In this document: positions 842 to 15,638 of the stretch, in pieces
How positions within the stretch are numbered: position 1 is the first letter of the stretch
How the letters are laid out: each line of letters begins with the position of its first letter
Source: a virus
IMG/VR virus record: IMGVR_UViG_3300045741_000111
Location: 1-23,235 of that record
Direction: 5' to 3' (one strand)
DNA length: 23,235 nt
Notes under the pieces: generated by a model
What the model saw: only the letters and a program-made list of their open reading frames with translations
Databases searched by the model: none
Told to the model about the DNA's origin: nothing
Made by a program: the position numbers and the translations under genes

Positions 842-1036
842 CGCCAACCGCCGCCCAGAACACCCGGAAAGAAGAGTGAATTGGACCAAAGTGCCCCGAG
901 CGGCGATTCGCGGTATCAGTTGCCGAACTAAACTGACCAAGCCATCCGGCCAAGCCAGCGATTATGTAACTCATTTGATTCTTTCGTTCAGCCAATCCAC
1001 GGTCTGTTCCTTTTTTCTTTCTTTCTAAATCTTTGG

Positions 1037-1127
1037 TCCCCCCGCTAGGATTCGAACCTAGGATGCGCACTAATCTGGTGCCTATGCCGGGTATAAGCCG
1101 GGTGTTTTACCGCTAAACTACAGGGGG
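1037..1127 (-). tRNA. tRNA with anticodon TAT and a long variable arm (tRNA-Ile(TAT)-like)
   Basis: Acceptor CCCCCTG (1121-1127) pairs with CGGGGGG (1038-1044, one T-G), followed by discriminator A and an encoded CCA (1034-1036). The D-arm is GTTT/AAAC round AGCGGTA. The anticodon arm is CCCGG-CTTATAC-CCGGC (outer pair mismatched), with T33 and anticodon TAT. The T-arm is CTAGG-TTCGAAT-CCTAG. Between anticodon and T arms lie about 24 bases with a GCAC/GTGC stem, i.e. a class II variable arm, giving 91 bases in all. TAT would read the isoleucine codon AUA, yet class II architecture is normal only for Leu, Ser and bacterial Tyr. Identity is therefore uncertain although the gene looks intact. 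Confidence 0.7.
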
Positions 1128-2352: not shown

Positions 2353-2372
2353 CCCCGGATTACCTACCGGGG
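2353..2372 (-). terminator. Hairpin and T-run ending the tmRNA transcript
   Basis: CCCCGG (2353-2358) pairs with CCGGGG (2367-2372) round an 8-base loop. On the - strand it is followed by CACATGATTTTT, so the T-run starts about 7 bases after the stem. It lies 20 bases beyond the tmRNA tag stop and just before the Shine-Dalgarno of the next gene. It could act as a weak terminator or as the 3' processing mark of the tmRNA coding piece. Confidence 0.5.
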
Positions 2373-2392
2373 CGTGGCTCATCACCAGGGGT

Positions 2393-2562
2393 TTACGCGA
2401 ACGCGGGTACCATTGCGCCTTGCGGAGCAAAGAAACCACGGATCGCCTCAACCATACGCGCAACTAGAGAGTTGGCATTTTTTTGTTTATGCTCTTTAAC
2501 GTTGGACATCTAACGCTTACCTCCACATCCACATCCATGTCCAGTCGAAACCGATCAGGCCC
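2393..2562 (-). ncRNA. tmRNA coding piece with 27-residue tag frame
   Basis: Begins with acceptor 5' strand GGGCCTG (2556-2562), D-like region ATCGGTTTCGA and P2 5' strand (2536-2544). After an A-rich run ending AAAAAAAT, the resume codon GCC lies at 2474-2476. The frame then reads A-N-S-L-V-A-R-M-V-E-A-I-R-G-F-F, then A-P-Q-G-A-M-V-P-A-F-A, stop TAA at 2393-2395. An alanine-asparagine opening and small hydrophobic C-terminus fit ssrA tags, which classically end in LAA or VAA; AFA is a variation. The tag is longer than the usual 8-16 residues. The resume codon is assigned by position, not proven. Confidence 0.7.
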
Positions 2563-2688
2563 ACCGAAGGGCTAAAGCAGGTGACTCGTGTCCAGCGAAA
2601 TTAACTTGCTTTAGCATCCTTCGTTAGGGGCGCATTGCTGCGCCCTCCACCAGAAGGGCAGACTAGTGACACCTAGCCCTACCTTCGG
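2563..2688 (-). ncRNA. Intervening segment of the permuted tmRNA precursor
   Basis: The segment joins the acceptor 3' end to the coding piece 5' end and would be removed in maturation. Its ends extend the acceptor stem: ACCGAAGG and CCTTCGGT add 8 bp, making an unbroken 15-bp helix with the acceptor pairs. Inside are three hairpins: GCTAAAGCA/TGCTTTAGC (2571-2579 with 2607-2615), GGGCGCA-TTGC-TGCGCCC (2628-2645), and an AGGGC/GCCCT pairing ending near 2680. RNase P would be expected to cut before G2562. Confidence 0.75.
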
Positions 2689-2768
2689 TGGACCTGCGGG
2701 GAATCGAACCCCGGTCCTAAACATATCGCGTTTGCTTCATCGATAAGACGCCAAACCCTCGTAAGGGT
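2689..2768 (-). ncRNA. tmRNA acceptor piece (transcribed first)
   Basis: Runs from a hairpin ACCCT-TACG-AGGGT (2755-2768) through GTTTG/CAAAC and GCGT/ACGC segments that can pair in an interleaved, pseudoknot-like way. Next come the P2 3' strand (2717-2725), T-arm and acceptor strand, ending at discriminator A (2689). The next bases are CCG, so the terminal CCA is not fully encoded and would need trimming and CCA addition. The 5' boundary is inferred; the upstream gene stops at 2781, 12 bases away. Confidence 0.75.
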
Positions 2769-2780
2769 AAAGCGTTTTAG

Positions 2781-3098
2781 CTATGCCGCAATCAAATCAG
2801 TGACTGGCAGTTCTGCCAGCGTTTGCTCCACTAGTATATCTAATTCGTCTGATGAGATTCGCCAAGGGTATGGAGTGTTTGGATTTAGATTATAGCCTGT
2901 AACTCTTTCAAATTCTTCTTTAGAGATTTGTTTTACTAATTTTACTAGTAACGATGAAAGGTTTGAGTCATTAGGGTCGAAGATCTCTAACCAATCACCG
3001 GGAGCCGCTAATGCGCTAATTTGAATATACGGCTTCTTTCTTAGTGATTCTGCTAAAGTTTTTAAATCAGGGTTTGCTGTTGCTTGATGTATAGTCAT
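2781..3098 (-). CDS. Conserved-looking small phage protein, unknown
   Basis: A 105-residue acidic protein, ATG 3098 behind AAAGGAG (spacing 7). It starts MTIHQATANPDLKTLAESL, has a mixed alpha/beta pattern (PYIQISALAAPGDWLEIF), then an alpha-helical KLVKQISKEEFERVTGY and a C-terminal helix SSDELDILVEQTLAELP. No cysteines, signal or membrane segment. It ends 12 bases before the tmRNA acceptor piece, so the tmRNA may be processed from the same transcript. Function not recognised. Confidence 0.7.
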   Translation of the reverse strand: MTIHQATANPDLKTLAESLRKKPYIQISALAAPGDWLEIFDPNDSNLSSLLVKLVKQISKEEFERVTGYNLNPNTPYPWRISSDELDILVEQTLAELPVTDLIAA

Positions 3099-3683: not shown

Positions 3684-3845
3684 TTAGCTACGTAGCAGTC
3701 GCCAATAACTCTCTACTCCTTTAGAGTGTTTAAAGCGTCGGCGTAAACAAACTTGCTTAGTCGCAGTACGAGGTGTTTGAGCCCCTATTGCGTAGCAATA
3801 TGCTGGGATTTGTTCTCCTAAATCTTTAAATTTGTTTTTCTTCAT
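3684..3845 (-). CDS. 53-residue basic protein, unknown
   Basis: ATG 3845 follows AAAAGG at spacing about 8. The protein is strongly basic: MKKNKFKDLGEQIPAYCYAI, then T-P-R-T-A-T-K-Q-V-C-L-R-R-R-F-K and a WRLLRS end. Two cysteines and clusters of K/R suggest nucleic acid or ribosome contact, an inference only. It lies just upstream of the tRNA-Lys gene, so one transcript may carry both. No family recognised. Confidence 0.6.
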   Translation of the reverse strand: MKKNKFKDLGEQIPAYCYAIGAQTPRTATKQVCLRRRFKHSKGVESYWRLLRS

Positions 3846-3937
3846 TGGGTTTACCTTTTCTAATCTAAAACTACCCTCATCTAGACGTTCACGCGGAGCG
3901 AGCGTCTAATCAAAGTAGGTTTGCGAGCTTCTATGTG

Positions 3938-4132
3938 TTATGCGGAAGTGACTTGCCAAGGTTTACATGGCCTAGGTGCGTATAGTGTAATCTGTACATC
4001 TTCACCCGGGTGTGTTTCTTGGATAGCAGTTAAGCAAGATTCGGGATATTTGAACTCTCCAAATACTTCACCGGTACCGACCTGCCCATATTGCCATTCA
4101 TTTCTATATTTACGAATTATGAATTGTTTCAT
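3938..4132 (-). CDS. Small unknown protein (64 residues)
   Basis: MKQFIIRKYRNEWQYGQVGT and on through EVFGEFKYPESCLTAIQETH to an end of RPCKPWQVTSA. The N-terminal half looks like two beta strands, the middle an amphipathic helix. Two cysteines. The ribosome site is modest (GGAGAAAG, about 13 bases upstream). Its start lies inside the 3' end of a remnant frame (4110-4232), the usual overlap pattern of this array. The frame on the opposite strand at the same place looks like a shadow. Function unknown. Confidence 0.55.
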   Translation of the reverse strand: MKQFIIRKYRNEWQYGQVGTGEVFGEFKYPESCLTAIQETHPGEDVQITLYAPRPCKPWQVTSA

Positions 4133-4232
4133 CTTCTACAGCTTTCTCCGCTAGACGAATTAGGTTTAAAGTACCGGCATCAATGGCAGCAGCAGCAGCA
4201 TTAGCAGCAGCCCTAGCAGTGTATTTATGTGC
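4110..4232 (-). pseudogene. Remnant of an alanine-rich gene (3' end only)
   Basis: An open frame without a usable start codon encodes KYTARAAANAAAAAIDAG, then TLNLIRLAEKAVEDETIHNS and a stop at 4110-4112. Alanine runs followed by a short charged helix are typical C-termini of some phage proteins. The next gene's ATG (4132) overlaps its 3' end as in an intact operon. Upstream in frame are a TGA (4233-4235) and further stops, so the 5' part is missing or frameshifted. The DNA has a GCA trinucleotide run (about 4185-4215), a plausible slippage site. Confidence 0.4.
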
Positions 4233-4492
4233 TCACCTACTGAACCCTCTCCCGCTGTTAAGCTCACTAGAGGTAGCACTTTCTAGGTGCCTTAACTACA
4301 GTACCGATGATAAACTTTCCAAAACCGTCAAGCTGGCGTCGCCAGAATAGCCCGCAATCGAGCGGAAACGCCGTGCCACGCCGATATTCGCTTCGGCGGG
4401 TAGGGTAGGCTACCCCCTCGCCTCTCGCCTCTCATATCGCAAAATTCATCACGATATCCGTTTCAACAGATAATTCGTGCGGATACACAAAA
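4233..4492. other. Intergenic, no supported gene
   Basis: About 260 bases with no frame that has both a start and a ribosome site. It contains GC-rich stretches with CGCTTCGGCG and CCTCGCCTCTCGCCTCTC direct repeats (about 4378-4435), similar in tone to the palindrome-rich strand-switch region. A long startless - strand frame crosses it and could be decayed coding sequence. I see no RNA gene here. Confidence 0.4.
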
Positions 4493-4516
4493 AAAGGGAC
4501 CCTACGGGGTCCCTTT
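4493..4516 (-). terminator. Strong intrinsic terminator for leftward transcripts
   Basis: AAAGGGACCC (4493-4502) pairs perfectly with GGGTCCCTTT (4507-4516) round a TACG tetraloop. On the - strand it is followed by a run of T (complement of the A-run 4489-4495). It lies 39 bases beyond the stop of the 4555-4686 gene and ends the three-gene unit 5302-4555. Confidence 0.85.
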
Positions 4517-4554
4517 GGAGGTAGTCAAAAATTTGTATCGAAACTAATCCCACG

Positions 4555-4686
4555 CTAGCGATTCCATCGGCGCCCCCTTTCTTCGCGGGTAGCTAGCCAA
4601 AACGCTCTAGACCAAAACACGATAGCTAGCGCGTAGCACGCTAGCTGCGCATAATCCCACACGAACCCCGCTAGTTTAGCGTCCAT
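4555..4686 (-). CDS. 43-residue membrane peptide
   Basis: MDAKLAGFVWDYAQLACYAL continues into AIVFWSRAFWLATREER and a basic end GRRWNR. The stretch from about residue 6 to 32 is aromatic and hydrophobic, followed by a strongly basic tail, so a single membrane span with cytosolic C-terminus is likely. ATG 4686 lies inside the last codons of the upstream gene, an 11-base overlap implying coupled translation. It is the last gene before the terminator at 4493-4516. Exact role unknown. Confidence 0.6.
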   Translation of the reverse strand: MDAKLAGFVWDYAQLACYALAIVFWSRAFWLATREERGRRWNR

Positions 4687-4903
4687 AGTGGTTTATCTCC
4701 CCAAAATCTAACGCTTCTTGCACACTGCGCGGCATCCATTTATCACGACGGATGGGGGCTTGATAGCGTAGCGGCGAATAGCTAACTACCATCCGTGCAC
4801 CCTGCATTGCCAATCCTTGCGACATTTCCGCTTGCGCTTCGCTACGCGCGTGGCGTCGAATGTCCTGTGCGTCAAATAGCGCCTCTAACTGCGTTTGCTT
4901 CAT
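4676..4903 (-). CDS. Small helical protein, unknown (75 residues)
   Basis: ATG 4903 is preceded by GAGGTGA at good spacing. The N-terminal half is a long charged helix (MKQTQLEALFDAQDIRRHA, then RSEAQAEMSQGLAMQG). The second half is M-V-V-S-Y-S-P-L-R-Y-Q-A-P-I-R-R with W and P, ending EALDFGEINHYGR. No cysteines. It is second in a three-gene leftward unit, separated from the first gene by an attenuator-like hairpin. Function not recognised. Confidence 0.65.
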   Translation of the reverse strand: MKQTQLEALFDAQDIRRHARSEAQAEMSQGLAMQGARMVVSYSPLRYQAPIRRDKWMPRSVQEALDFGEINHYGR

Positions 4904-4923
4904 ACGCTTGTCACCTCAAGCAA

Positions 4924-4949
4924 AACCCCCTGCTAGGTAGCAGGGGGTT
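4924..4949 (-). terminator. Hairpin terminator/attenuator between two leftward genes
   Basis: AACCCCCTGC (4924-4933) pairs with GCAGGGGGTT (4940-4949) round TAGGTA. On the - strand the stem is followed by TTG from the complement of CAAAA, a short U-run. It lies 23 bases after the stop of the 4973-5302 gene. Partial termination would make the first gene more abundant than the two behind it, as for a highly expressed phage protein. Confidence 0.75.
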
Positions 4950-4972
4950 AGCTTCAAACCACACGCGTAGCG

Positions 4973-5302: not shown

Positions 5303-5670
5303 GTATATACCTCGTATGTATCTCTCTAGCGTATCGTGCTAGCTACGTAGTCCCTACCCGTAGGGGGCGAGGGTGCCGAAGGCGAAAGCCGGGGTCGGCG
5401 AGAACTTGAGTGCAAGCGGCGTGCCAAACGCGCAGAGCGTTGAAAACAAAGGACTTGCGCCGGAGTTCGCCTTCTTTTCGCCTTGTAAATTCTGCCGAGT
5501 GGGTAAAATTTGCATGGCGCAGCCGGTAAAATTTGCACACCTTGCGGGTTTTCGCCTAGGTTTCGCCCTGCCTGGAGGTATACACTCGCGAAGCGTGTAC
5601 CCGCATCCGCTAGAACCCACTAGGTTTTCGCGTCGCGTGTTACGCCACGCGGTGACACCCGCCGGGTTAT

Positions 5671-5685
5671 CTTAGCGAAGCTAAG
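5671..5685. repeat. GAA-triloop palindrome
   Basis: CTTAGC and GCTAAG flank GAA. It contains the heptamer GCGAAGC, whose single strand is known to fold into an unusually stable DNA mini-hairpin with a sheared G-A pair in the loop. Confidence 0.6.
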
Positions 5686-5764
5686 GGGAATATCGCCCCC
5701 ACCTATCACCCCGCGCTACGCGATAAACCCTCCGCATATTCGCTTTCGCTTCGCCTACACCCGT

Positions 5765-5779
5765 ACGAACGAAGTTCGT
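5765..5779. repeat. GAA-triloop palindrome, different stem
   Basis: ACGAAC and GTTCGT flank GAA in a perfect 6-bp stem. The stem sequence differs from the one at 5671-5685 while the C-GAA-G apex is kept, so the fold rather than the sequence seems conserved. Confidence 0.6.
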
Positions 5780-5880
5780 GTAGCGGAATACCCGTATCAC
5801 GCACGCAGTGCGGGGGTGGGTCAACCTATCGCACGAGCGGATGCGAGCAGGTATAGGCGTATCCCGCCTCTCCAGAGCCG

Positions 5881-5924
5881 TAAAAATTTTAAAAAATAAA
5901 ATACAAAAAAATTTAAAAAATATT
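5881..5924. other. 44-bp A/T tract next to the rightward promoter
   Basis: The tract has only one C in 44 bases, with runs of A and AATTT-type steps, in a neighbourhood that is otherwise GC-rich. It could be a DNA-unwinding element or an upstream activating tract; it ends about 108 bases before the -35 box at 6032. Confidence 0.5.
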
Positions 5925-6013
5925 AGGAACGCGTCGCGTAAGGTGTTTCCCCGCCCGCCCACACCAAGTATAATAGCGGTTCTGCGATTTCGTCGGGAAA
6001 TTCAGTGAATTCG

Positions 6014-7208: not shown

Positions 7209-7266
7209 ACCCCCAGGTGGATCATTCCCTTATGTGTCATTTTATTAGATTTGGAGACGCTTGTAC

Positions 7267-8121
7267 GTGTCAAAGAGAATCGTAGTTCTCGGCGATCAGA
7301 TGCTAGACATCTATCGCTTCTGCACGCCTAACGGTGTAGCCCAGGAAGCACCTATAGTTAAACACACGTTCCAATCTGAGCGGGTTGTTTTAGGAGGCGC
7401 TGCTAATGTAGCTCAACAGATATCAAACTTAGTTAAACACATAGATTGTAAAGTTGATATCCACGCATCTAGCTATAACCAAATGTGCCATAAGACCCGT
7501 TACATCTCCGACAACACTGAAGTGTGTCGTGTAGATCGTGATGTGATTGGCCCAGAAATAACCCAACAAGAAATCAATGAGTTTTGTAAAGGAGCCGACG
7601 TGCTAGTCATCTCCGATTACGAAAAAGGTACCTTCTCTTCCAGCATTCAACACTCTTACCCGACAATCCCAACTTTCATAGATTGCAAAAACCCGACAAA
7701 GTTTAAAGTCTCCAAGGGAATATTCTTCCCTAACCAAAAAGAGTTTGACGCGAACCAAGCTTTCGGCTTAAACAAATGCCTAGTAACTAAAGGTCATGAA
7801 GGCGCTGCGTTGTATACACCAACTACAGGATTTTCAAATTTCTTTTTACCACCAAACCCTCAAATCCGTCCAGCATCCGTAGTAGGTGCGGGTGACGTAG
7901 TAGTTGCTGCTTACACAGTGGCTAGCACCCTAGGCTTTCCGCCACTCTCGTGTGCTGAGATCGCTGTGACTTGCGCATCCGTCGCGGTAACTCACTTAAT
8001 TCCCAAGATAAAACTTGACGATTTAGCTAAAGCTTGGTATGCTAATAAGACTAGCACAAATGGTATGTCTGGATATATCCGAGATTTTATTGTGGCACTT
8101 GGATTTAAGTTATATGACTAA
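7267..8121 (+). CDS. PfkB-family sugar kinase, RfaE/HldE kinase-domain type
   Basis: In the ADP-heptose route this domain phosphorylates D-glycero-manno-heptose 7-phosphate at C1 with ATP. The protein opens MSKRIVVLGDQMLDIYRF (strand plus the D-x-x-L-D substrate loop). It has the hallmark LGGAANVA, K-T-R-Y-I...V-C-R-V-D-R-D as in RfaE, F-P-N-Q-K-E-F, V-T-K-G-H-E-G-A and the catalytic V-V-G-A-G-D loop (Asp as base). About 284 residues against roughly 310-320 in bacterial domains. Start: GTG 7267 with GGAG 10 bases upstream; TTG 7261 is also possible. ATG of the next gene overlaps its stop. With the nucleotidyltransferase at 9975 it re-creates in two proteins what HldE does in one. Confidence 0.82.
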   Translation: MSKRIVVLGDQMLDIYRFCTPNGVAQEAPIVKHTFQSERVVLGGAANVAQQISNLVKHIDCKVDIHASSYNQMCHKTRYISDNTEVCRVDRDVIGPEITQQEINEFCKGADVLVISDYEKGTFSSSIQHSYPTIPTFIDCKNPTKFKVSKGIFFPNQKEFDANQAFGLNKCLVTKGHEGAALYTPTTGFSNFFLPPNPQIRPASVVGAGDVVVAAYTVASTLGFPPLSCAEIAVTCASVAVTHLIPKIKLDDLAKAWYANKTSTNGMSGYIRDFIVALGFKLYD

Positions 8122-8467
8122 ACCAATCTTAACCCTAACTAAAAAAGACATGAAGCGCCAAACCTTTCGTTGTGGAGGTAAGGGTGGTCAGAACGTAAAT
8201 AAAGTTGAAACAGGTGTACGTTTTATTCACGAAGCTTCCGGATGTGTAGCGGAATCCTGCACCTTTCGACATCAACATCAGAATGAAGTAGAAGCTTTTA
8301 AACGTTTGATTGAGCAACCTAAAATGCAAAAATGGCTGCGGGTGGAAACACTTAAAAGACTAGGACAGTGTGCGCCAGAGTCTATGGAAGAGATGCAGGC
8401 TCGTGTTAATAAACAATTTGAACAAGATCTTAGAAATGGAAACATACTGGTAGAGACCTATGAGTAA
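8114..8467 (+). CDS. GGQ-domain release-factor-like / ribosome rescue protein
   Basis: A 117-residue protein made almost only of the class I release factor catalytic domain. R-C-G-G-K-G-G-Q-N-V-N-K-V-E-T-G-V-R matches the conserved segment, with GGQ at residues 24-26, which hydrolyses peptidyl-tRNA in the ribosomal centre. T-F-R-H-Q-H-Q-N-E-V-E-A-F follows as in the family. Codon-recognition domains are absent, as in ArfB-type rescue factors, though the basic ArfB tail is not obvious. The true start is ATG 8114, overlapping the kinase stop (ATGACTAA). Its stop overlaps the cupin start. It may terminate or rescue ribosomes during infection, alongside the tmRNA. Confidence 0.85.
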   Translation: MTKPILTLTKKDMKRQTFRCGGKGGQNVNKVETGVRFIHEASGCVAESCTFRHQHQNEVEAFKRLIEQPKMQKWLRVETLKRLGQCAPESMEEMQARVNKQFEQDLRNGNILVETYE

Positions 8468-9011: not shown

Positions 9012-9863
9012 ATGTCCCTCGCCAAATCTTTAGAACACGCCGCTACTCTTCCCAGGGAAGAGCGTGACGAGCTATTGGAGAAGATTGGCCAAATCGAATA
9101 TGACAAATGCGCGGCGGACCCATTCTACTGGTTTGATCCGCGCCGTCACGATGGAATCGCGTACGTAAAAACAGTAGATCGAGGTTCTAAGTTCCATTGC
9201 AACCTCTGTAAAGATCAGGAACAGCGCGACTCCGCAAAGCTCGCGTTACATCTCCAAACCTACCACGGCATCAAAGTTAAAAATGACTACGAAGCCCTCG
9301 GCTACTTTACGAAATTACCGCCTCTCCGTGCATTCCCTTTCGTAGAGAAAGAAGAGTACCTACGCCCTCTAATCGAAACTTGGCTAGGCGAACGCTACTT
9401 CTGTATAGAGAAATCCCGCGACATGATGGCAACCTGGCTAGTGCTTTGCCTATACGTATGGGATACCTACTTCCACGCAGGGCGTGAAAACATCTTCCAA
9501 TCGGAGAAAGCTCCGAAGGCCCTAGAACTAATCAACCGCGCTAACCAAATCTACTCAAACCAACCTAAGTTTCTACGCCAAATACACCCTGGCCGTATGA
9601 CTAAAGGTAACGATAAATCTGGCATACTAGAATTTACCTCTCTAGATTCTAAGTTGCTTGGCTTCGCCCAGGGTGCGGATCAAATCCGCATGTACCATCC
9701 CTCTGGCCTATTCCAAGACGAAGCTGCATATCAAATCGGAGCCGAAGAGGGATTCATTGCGGTCAAACCTGCTCTTCAATCCGGAGGTCGATACACTGCC
9801 GTATCTTCTGCCAACCCTTCTTTTTTTATGACTTTATGTAGAGATGAAACAGATGCAGAATAA
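9012..9863 (+). CDS. terL: Large terminase, N-terminal ATPase half (split gene)
   Basis: Terminase pumps DNA into the prohead with ATP and cuts it. This 283-residue part has the ATPase motor: Walker A-like K-S-R-D-M-M-A-T-W (134-142), Walker B L-F-Q-D-E (233-237, E237 catalytic) and coupling motif S-S-A-N-P (265-269). A C2H2-like zinc site (C63, C66, H80, H85) precedes the motor. It stops 14 residues after the coupling motif, exactly where full-length enzymes pass into the linker and nuclease. The missing half is at 14751-15638. Four bases separate it from the cupin stop, and its ribosome site is weak, so coupling is likely. Confidence 0.88.
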   Translation: MSLAKSLEHAATLPREERDELLEKIGQIEYDKCAADPFYWFDPRRHDGIAYVKTVDRGSKFHCNLCKDQEQRDSAKLALHLQTYHGIKVKNDYEALGYFTKLPPLRAFPFVEKEEYLRPLIETWLGERYFCIEKSRDMMATWLVLCLYVWDTYFHAGRENIFQSEKAPKALELINRANQIYSNQPKFLRQIHPGRMTKGNDKSGILEFTSLDSKLLGFAQGADQIRMYHPSGLFQDEAAYQIGAEEGFIAVKPALQSGGRYTAVSSANPSFFMTLCRDETDAE

Positions 9864-9966
9864 AATATTAAATGCTTTGTCTTCAGAAGGTGCTGTCATT
9901 GTGTGGATTCTCGCCGCTGCGTTCCTATTGGGAAGCGTAGTAGGTCGAATCCTTGGAATTCTATAA
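9844..9966 (+). CDS. 40-residue single-pass membrane peptide
   Basis: Starts inside the terminase 3' end (ATG 9844; a second in-frame ATG at 9853). After MKQMQNKILNALSSEG comes a hydrophobic helix AVIVWILAAAFLLGSVVG (about residues 17-34) and a short RILGIL end. Topology would be N-terminal cytosolic with one span. It is the first gene in the DNA that separates the two terminase halves. It could be a holin-like or exclusion peptide; no family evidence. Confidence 0.55.
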   Translation: MKQMQNKILNALSSEGAVIVWILAAAFLLGSVVGRILGIL

Positions 9967-9974
9967 ATAAACTT

Positions 9975-10496
9975 ATGCCCCGTAAACACAAATCAACACC
10001 ACCAAACGCACATCGTGGCGAACGCAACTGGCACTGGGCTGTAAATCGTGACCCTTCAGAGTTAGAATGGATGCGAGCCGAGCGGTTCCGTGGCATGCAA
10101 CTCAAAGCTCCGGTAGTTCTAATCAATGGAGCCTTCGATCTGCTGCACTCCGGTCATATGAAAGTAATTTCATATGCTCGTGAACACGCGGGAACCCTAG
10201 TATGTGCCATGGATTCAGATCGACGCATCCGCGAAGCCAAAGGGCCGTCCCGCCCAATTCTCAACTGGGTCGAGCGGGCTACAACCCTAGGCTACATGCC
10301 TATCGATTACCTCGTGGAGATTGACTCTGATGAGGAAATGAGGGACTTGATTAACTCACTACGCCCAGACCTCCGAGTCCAAGGTGGCGACTACGTAGAA
10401 CATGCCTCCAAATACCCGTGGCTACGTAAAATGTTTGTAACTACCGGAGGCATCCGCACTTCTGAGATCGTGCGAAGAATTAAAGAAAGAGAATAA
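9975..10496 (+). CDS. Nucleotidyltransferase, RfaE/HldE C-domain type
   Basis: Members of this cytidylyltransferase-fold family join a sugar 1-phosphate (or glycerol 3-phosphate and others) to a nucleotide with release of pyrophosphate. The 173-residue protein from ATG 9975 has N-G-A-F-D-L-L-H-S-G-H (51-61, the nucleotide-binding H-x-G-H form), D-S-D-R-R-I-R, a G-P-x-R-P-I segment, V-Q-G-G-D-Y and G-G-I-R-T-S-E-I-V at the C-end, close to the G-x-S-T-T motif. About 40 extra basic residues precede the domain. I chose ATG 9975 because the frame above it overlaps the membrane peptide. Paired with the kinase at 7267 it would form ADP-heptose or a similar activated sugar. Confidence 0.82.
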   Translation: MPRKHKSTPPNAHRGERNWHWAVNRDPSELEWMRAERFRGMQLKAPVVLINGAFDLLHSGHMKVISYAREHAGTLVCAMDSDRRIREAKGPSRPILNWVERATTLGYMPIDYLVEIDSDEEMRDLINSLRPDLRVQGGDYVEHASKYPWLRKMFVTTGGIRTSEIVRRIKERE

Positions 10497-14750: not shown

Positions 14751-15638
14751 ATGCCAGAAATTCTCTTTGAATCAGAATATCGAGATCCTAAGACAAACCT
14801 TCCCGGTCTTCTAATTCGTAAAAACTCCAAAAACAAATTCGCCATCGCATCTCTCTATTTCTTCGCAGACCCGTCCAAACGCTCAGAAGAATGGCAAGCT
14901 GAGGCCTTCGCAGGTATGACTCCCGCAGGAGTTCGCAAAGAATACTACATCGACTACACCGCTATGGCCGGGCAGAAAATCTTCCCAGAATTCTTCGAAC
15001 ACGAAGCTAAAATTATCGTGCCCCCCGTAGACCTAGACCCTAGTGAATACGCGTTCTTCGCTGGATTCGACTACGGCCCTCGTAACCCCTCCAGCTTTCA
15101 CATCTATGCACGACACAAAAACCCAAAGCCCGAGGAACCGTGGTTAGTAGTCCACGAGCAGTACGAACCTTGCCCGAACATCCCCGAGTTTGCGGAGAAG
15201 ATGAAGGCGCATAAGTATTTCCCCTACATCAAATACATCGCAGCGGACCCTGATTTATGGTCAGCTCGCCAACACGTAAAAGCGGGCAACCCAATCTCGA
15301 TCAATCAGTTATTCATTAACGAAGGGGTAGTTCTATTTACTCCTGGGGTACGTGACGAAGAAGCATGGATCGCAGAAATGCATCGGCATTGGATGGCTGA
15401 GGTACCAACTTTCCAAATCTTCTCTTCCTGCTTCCATCTAATAGATGAAATCAAGAACGCGGTGTACGAAGATCCGAAGAGTCTCGATAAAAATCTAGCG
15501 TATTCAGATCGAATGGCCGACCGCTACAACCACGCCCTAGACGACTGCAAGTACTTCATCAACTCTATCCCCATGGCGAACCTCTCGGAGCGAAAGGTAA
15601 CGAAGTACCCTATAATGGTTAACAAATGGAAAAATTAA
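14751..15638 (+). CDS. terL: Large terminase, C-terminal nuclease half (split gene)
   Basis: 295 residues. The first 75 (N-S-K-N-K-F, F-A-D-P-S-K-R-S-E-E-W, Y-Y-I-D-Y-T-A-M-A-G-Q) are the segment that in intact terminases follows the ATPase. The RNase H-like nuclease comes next: F-F-A-G-F-D-Y-G (D107), Y-I-A-A-D-P-D (D166) and H-A-L-D-D near 261-265, the three acidic sites that hold metal and cut concatemers. It has its own ATG but no strong ribosome site, and is coupled to the methyltransferase. With the 9012-9863 protein it should rebuild one motor; whether the halves bind each other is not shown by the sequence. Confidence 0.88.
   Translation: MPEILFESEYRDPKTNLPGLLIRKNSKNKFAIASLYFFADPSKRSEEWQAEAFAGMTPAGVRKEYYIDYTAMAGQKIFPEFFEHEAKIIVPPVDLDPSEYAFFAGFDYGPRNPSSFHIYARHKNPKPEEPWLVVHEQYEPCPNIPEFAEKMKAHKYFPYIKYIAADPDLWSARQHVKAGNPISINQLFINEGVVLFTPGVRDEEAWIAEMHRHWMAEVPTFQIFSSCFHLIDEIKNAVYEDPKSLDKNLAYSDRMADRYNHALDDCKYFINSIPMANLSERKVTKYPIMVNKWKN

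Follow-up and report, generated by a model that had tools for sequence, protein, structure and literature searches.

A divergent, beta-like circularly permuted tmRNA gene on a phage contig

We analysed a virus record of 23,235 bases, referred to here as the window, and confirmed a gene for a circularly permuted tmRNA on its minus strand at 2302-2785. An earlier note on this DNA had proposed a phage-encoded permuted tmRNA from the letters alone, and this proposal is borne out by a match to the Rfam family of permuted tmRNAs, by an independent gene finder and by synteny of the window with other phages. Phage permuted tmRNAs have already been described, and the one in the window is a rather divergent new example.

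Detection of the gene and its phage setting

The Rfam model tmRNA_permuted (RF04321) matched the minus strand at 2448-2748 over its full length (model positions 1-213 of 213), with 78.4 bits and an E-value of 8.9e-14 against a gathering score of 47; searched with the tmRNA stretch alone, the score was 81.8 bits. The gene scores under other phage examples, which reach 93-144 bits. ARAGORN, an unrelated program, independently called a permuted tmRNA (tmRNA*) at 2302-2778. The coordinates given in the earlier note proved good, and the RF01850 alignment, which extends to 2785, together with the ARAGORN call widens the gene to roughly 2302-2785. The window contains the permuted order of motifs (T-arm, ACC, a gap of 110-140 nt, then GGTTTCGAC) a single time, and 100 shuffles did not contain it at all.

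The record carries terminase, portal and capsid genes, and the segment 6918-22897, which contains these and others, is syntenic with eight viral relatives at a capsid identity of 61-69%; all eight came from a search with the capsid, and a search with the portal gave none. The tmRNA sits in a left arm that is not common to these relatives, the left 6.9 kb being without a syntenic match, and it lies among genes for tRNA-Ile, tRNA-Tyr and tRNA-Lys called by ARAGORN. It adjoins the open reading frame 1910-2326, a member of the phage family phrog_2650. The phage genes and the synteny support a phage-encoded gene, and the phrog_2650 neighbor and the tRNA cluster make it improbable that the left end is host DNA. 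As the capsid relatives' records gave no tmRNA match and the stretches of them that were read contain no tRNA, the tmRNA was either gained locally or lost elsewhere.

Several other features of the window deserve mention. A type-P5 twister self-cleaving ribozyme (58 bits, cut-off 37.6) lies at 1854-1909 on the tmRNA strand, directly downstream of the frame 1910-2326, and could cut the same transcript; it was not found in the capsid relatives. The tRNA-Ile(UAU) at 1034-1127 (minus strand) measures 94 nt and has about 20 extra bases in its variable region, with a pairable GCAC...GUGC, which is unusual for an isoleucine tRNA. Two long segments that separate the left arm from the conserved block (3700-4970 and 5310-6000) are without convincing open reading frames and contain G+C-rich inverted repeats. 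The large terminase is apparently split into two plus-strand frames (9012-9863 and 14751-15638) that lie 4.9 kb apart, with a reductase, a methyltransferase and other genes between them; in several relatives the terminase parts are also separate frames. Finally, a heptose kinase-like gene (7261-8121, plus strand) and a heptose adenylyltransferase-like gene (9903-10496, plus strand) are two genes whose order is kept in the relatives.

Anatomy of the two pieces and the spacer

The gene reads leftward, starting at about the stop codon of the open reading frame 2781-3098, and its transcript runs from an acceptor piece through a 124-nt spacer to a coding piece and a terminator-like hairpin; all the positions that follow are on the minus strand. 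Sequence and folding place a hairpin, CGCTTTACCCTTACGAGGGTTTGGCG (2749-2774), close to the precursor's 5' end. The acceptor piece then contributes the 3' strand of the P2 helix (about 2718-2727, from the search with the beta model and the sequence), the T-arm CCGGGGTTCGATTCCCCG (2697-2714, from the RF04321 match and the sequence) and the acceptor 3' strand CAGGTCC (2696-2690), which together with the ACC behind it occupies 2687-2696 by pairing and sequence. This ACC is the discriminator A plus CC, the final A of the tail not being encoded.

Beyond the spacer, the coding piece opens with the acceptor 5' strand GGGCCTG (2556-2562; pairing, comparison and sequence), whose G3 lies opposite U70. 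The D-loop-like tmRNA hallmark GGTTTCGAC follows at 2544-2552, identified by the RF04321 match and by sequence, then the 5' strand of P2, TGGACATGG (2535-2543; beta model search and sequence), and a hairpin at the position of PK1, CGTTAGATGTCCAACG (2500-2515; RF04321 match, folding and sequence). The tag frame with its stop, ANSLVARMVEAIRGFFAPQGAMVPAFA, spans 2393-2476 according to ARAGORN and the sequence, and the gene ends with a terminator-like G+C-rich hairpin and then ACATGATTTT (2352-2373).

The signals on which the earlier note had built its case are all in place. Its 5' hallmark is present at 2552-2544, and the acceptor strand behind the T-arm, said to pair over 7 bp with a distant 5' strand, does so at seven of seven positions (CAGGTCC with GGGCCTG), the two strands being encoded in swapped order on either side of the spacer. 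The P2 helix described there as 9 bp has eight consecutive pairs from U2543, or nine if the adjacent C-G is counted, and the frame noted behind an A-rich stretch reads GCC AAC ... TAA at 2476-2393. The acceptor stem includes the G3-U70 wobble (GT at 3-70), which is identical in all 82 of the other viral, prophage-like and betaproteobacterial sequences compared. G3-U70 is the identity pair for alanine. Several of the P2 pairs are G-U, and this helix has a competitor because its TGGACAT is perfectly matched over 7 nt by the local ATGTCCA, the loop of the 2515-2500 hairpin, a pairing that single-strand folding favors.

The spacer itself (2563-2686) has paired ends and about three hairpins inside, as judged from pairing, comparison and folding. 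Its ends form eight contiguous perfect pairs that continue the acceptor stem, after which pairing ceases; added to the 7-bp stem, they give a 15-bp helix that closes the spacer. For the RNA spanning the spacer, folding gave z = -5.9. In the set of viral tmRNAs with long spacers, the fraction of paired positions in this helix extension is 0.86, compared with 0.56 when partners are swapped, and the extension is thus conserved as pairing. Bacterial beta tmRNAs likewise prolong the acceptor helix into their spacers (ACCAAAAG...CTTTTGAT).

Relationship to bacterial and phage tmRNAs

The betaproteobacterial model is the best-fitting of the older lineage models. Beta_tmRNA (RF01850) aligned over its full length with 49.4 bits (E 3.6e-14), under its cut-off of 84, and alpha_tmRNA (RF01849) gave a partial match of 19.9 bits, under its cut-off of 50; for cyano_tmRNA (RF01851), the general Rfam scan listed no match, and the search of the stretch omitted lower matches of the same clan. 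Pairwise identity over about 195 nt is at most 51% to any tmRNA in a comparison set assembled without alphaproteobacterial sequences, and does not place the gene. Given the sub-threshold score with RF01850, the beta-style helix extension and this low identity, the sequence describes a divergent tmRNA that is beta-like only. A pattern search found no close tmRNA relative, and the viral contigs searched gave no relative of either protein that flanks the gene. The suggestion in the earlier note that the tmRNA could tell the host group therefore stands only weakly, in that the beta model fits best yet its cut-off is missed, and a host assignment beyond beta-like is not justified.

The likeness to the permuted tmRNAs of Betaproteobacteria (RF01850, now within RF04321) extends to gene order, T-arm and GGTTTCGAC, to the acceptor stem with its G3-U70 and the helix running from the acceptor into the spacer, and to the PK1-position hairpin and the GCC AAC region where translation resumes. 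Apart from the missed family cut-off, two differences stand out: the spacer measures 31-66 nt in 11 Burkholderiaceae tmRNAs and 124 nt in the phage, and the betaproteobacterial tag is 10 aa long, compared with a predicted 27 aa here. Among alphaproteobacterial matches over the cut-off, the total span is at most about 260 bases, compared with 301 here.

We surveyed spacers with patterns of two fixed gap ranges. In IMG/VR contigs, the two patterns matched 73 viral stretches (about 70 more permuted tmRNAs), nearly all of them also called by ARAGORN. The long-spacer pattern matched 34 viral stretches, again nearly all permuted tmRNAs by ARAGORN; in 84,980 prokaryotic genomes it gave 14 matches with a single true case, in Achromobacter anxifer. 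Long spacers (about 104-134 nt) thus recur in viral permuted tmRNAs and are nearly absent from prokaryotic genomes within the two gap ranges scanned, a restriction that makes the contrast a lead rather than a distribution. On the Achromobacter anxifer contig, the long-spacer tmRNA, 14 tRNAs and a GOLLD RNA fall within 8 kb, an array that is probably a prophage.

The frame from the resume codon GCC to TAA predicts a tag of 27 aa that ends in AFA, atypical in its length and in lacking the LAA end. An open frame of 27 codons is not improbable by chance, so that tag length alone proves nothing; predicted tags of 25-30 aa nevertheless occur in about ten viral tmRNAs, compared with 10-13 aa in the bacterial tmRNAs recovered. 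The window's own tag sequence has no occurrence in the phages searched. Three viral permuted tmRNAs (L017, L018 and L072) have predicted tags of 27-30 aa with an FTGN motif in common. Judged by its length and its AFA end in place of LAA, the tag may be a poor degron.

The earlier note was mistaken in supposing that a permuted tmRNA might be new to phages, and we rejected the claim of a first case on literature and database evidence. A two-piece tmRNA was reported in 2022 from the Methylophilales phage Melnitz, in a study that lists 53 two-piece tmRNAs in phage genomes, of which 50 come from marine or aquatic phages (PMC9004378). By the count of the work that introduced RF04321, the tmRNA database has 79 phage sequences, all forms taken together (PMC11915505). 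To these can be added the roughly 70 viral contigs of our survey and three cultured phages, namely Stenotrophomonas phage Marzo, where the gene is annotated, Bordetella phage PHB04 and Pseudomonas phage SM1. In all three isolates, as in the window, the permuted tmRNA is phage-borne and near tRNA genes, but those of Marzo and SM1 score above the beta cut-off and that of the window below it. The Melnitz tmRNA is of alphaproteobacterial type (PMC9004378), whereas the one described here is beta-like. Compared with these phage examples, its sequence is also more divergent and its tag longer.

A probable role in ribosome rescue

We consider it likely that the phage has here a working gene for a two-piece tmRNA of the permuted, betaproteobacterial type. 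The analysis shows the anatomy of the gene, its pairing and its family membership. From tmRNA biology we infer that the gene is expressed, that its RNA is cut, charged and used for tagging together with the host's SmpB, and that the phage benefits; most likely the product frees stalled ribosomes in the infected cell. In the folded transcript, the spacer would be closed off by the acceptor stem plus the 8-bp extension; host RNase P and 3' trimming enzymes would cut it out, leaving the acceptor and coding pieces joined via the acceptor stem and P2. After completion of the 3' end by CCA addition, alanyl-tRNA synthetase would charge the molecule through G3-U70, and host SmpB would bring it to ribosomes stalled on broken messages. 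There, translation would resume at GCC and the tag be added up to the stop, which would release the ribosome and leave the peptide labeled for proteolysis. Counting against this reading, the 8-bp pairing of leader and trailer could hinder RNase P, the beta cut-off is missed, and a SmpB gene is missing from the contig, which is a fragment.

The main rivals to an ordinary two-piece tmRNA are a gene in decay and a decoy role. In the first, which we regard as unlikely, a beta-type gene was acquired and has since drifted until it no longer tags, the long tag being read-through past a lost stop. The score below those of other phage tmRNAs, the G-U-rich P2 with its competing local pairing and the capsid relatives without the gene weigh for decay and against function alike, and the 27-aa tag with its AFA end is atypical. 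Against decay, however, the acceptor stem is intact at seven of seven pairs with G3-U70, the T-arm and GGTTTCGAC are intact as well, the 8 bp that prolong the stem into the spacer are perfect, the frame runs uninterrupted from resume codon to stop, and other viral tmRNAs too have predicted tags of 25-30 aa. Still less probable is a decoy or modifier that, in competition with the tmRNA of the host, either shuts trans-translation down or gives proteins a tag with another fate, so that they escape the usual proteases. The long tag with its non-LAA end would suit such a role, but the tag frame is complete with a stop, unlike that of DS6A. A chance resemblance, in which a tRNA-like fold with a fortuitous GGTTTCGAC mimics a tmRNA, has the sub-threshold scores of the lineage-specific models as its sole support and is refuted in practice by the full-length RF04321 match (E 8.9e-14), the ARAGORN call and the shuffle test, with the seven acceptor pairs including G3-U70 also speaking against it.

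The functional reading relies on SmpB from the host, and phage SmpB genes are rare, with one among 48 viral records searched. A very large viral record, G202 (296.6 kb), combines a permuted tmRNA with an SmpB gene of its own (185.8 bits). In the window, the frame 8039-8467 (plus strand) encodes an RF-1 domain protein with a GGQ motif (62 bits), a mini release factor similar to those of mycobacteriophages and Tunturiibacter phages; the relatives gave no match to this gene at the syntenic position. The pairing with a tmRNA has precedent in that McGee carries both. McGee and Colt, which are mycobacteriophages of cluster C, share the RF-1 mini release factor and tRNAs with the window, but their genomes of about 156-158 kb are unrelated to it. 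The tmRNAs of cluster C mycobacteriophages are one-piece. Among the 48 viral records, an RF-1 protein and a permuted tmRNA occur together on the window's contig and on one other, and we therefore rejected their co-occurrence as a general rule.

With this gene, the phage-borne two-piece tmRNAs gain a divergent example, and the long spacers merit a survey. If the long-spacer contrast between phages and prokaryotes holds, phage tmRNAs would form a branch of their own. We give a small chance to the more specific proposal that this is a phage-evolved branch of beta-type tmRNAs, marked by a long, structured spacer and in some cases a long tag, adapted to infection instead of the quality control of the host, and here combined with an RF-1-type factor into a two-part kit for ribosome rescue. 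The long tags could reveal whether phages change the fate of tagged proteins.
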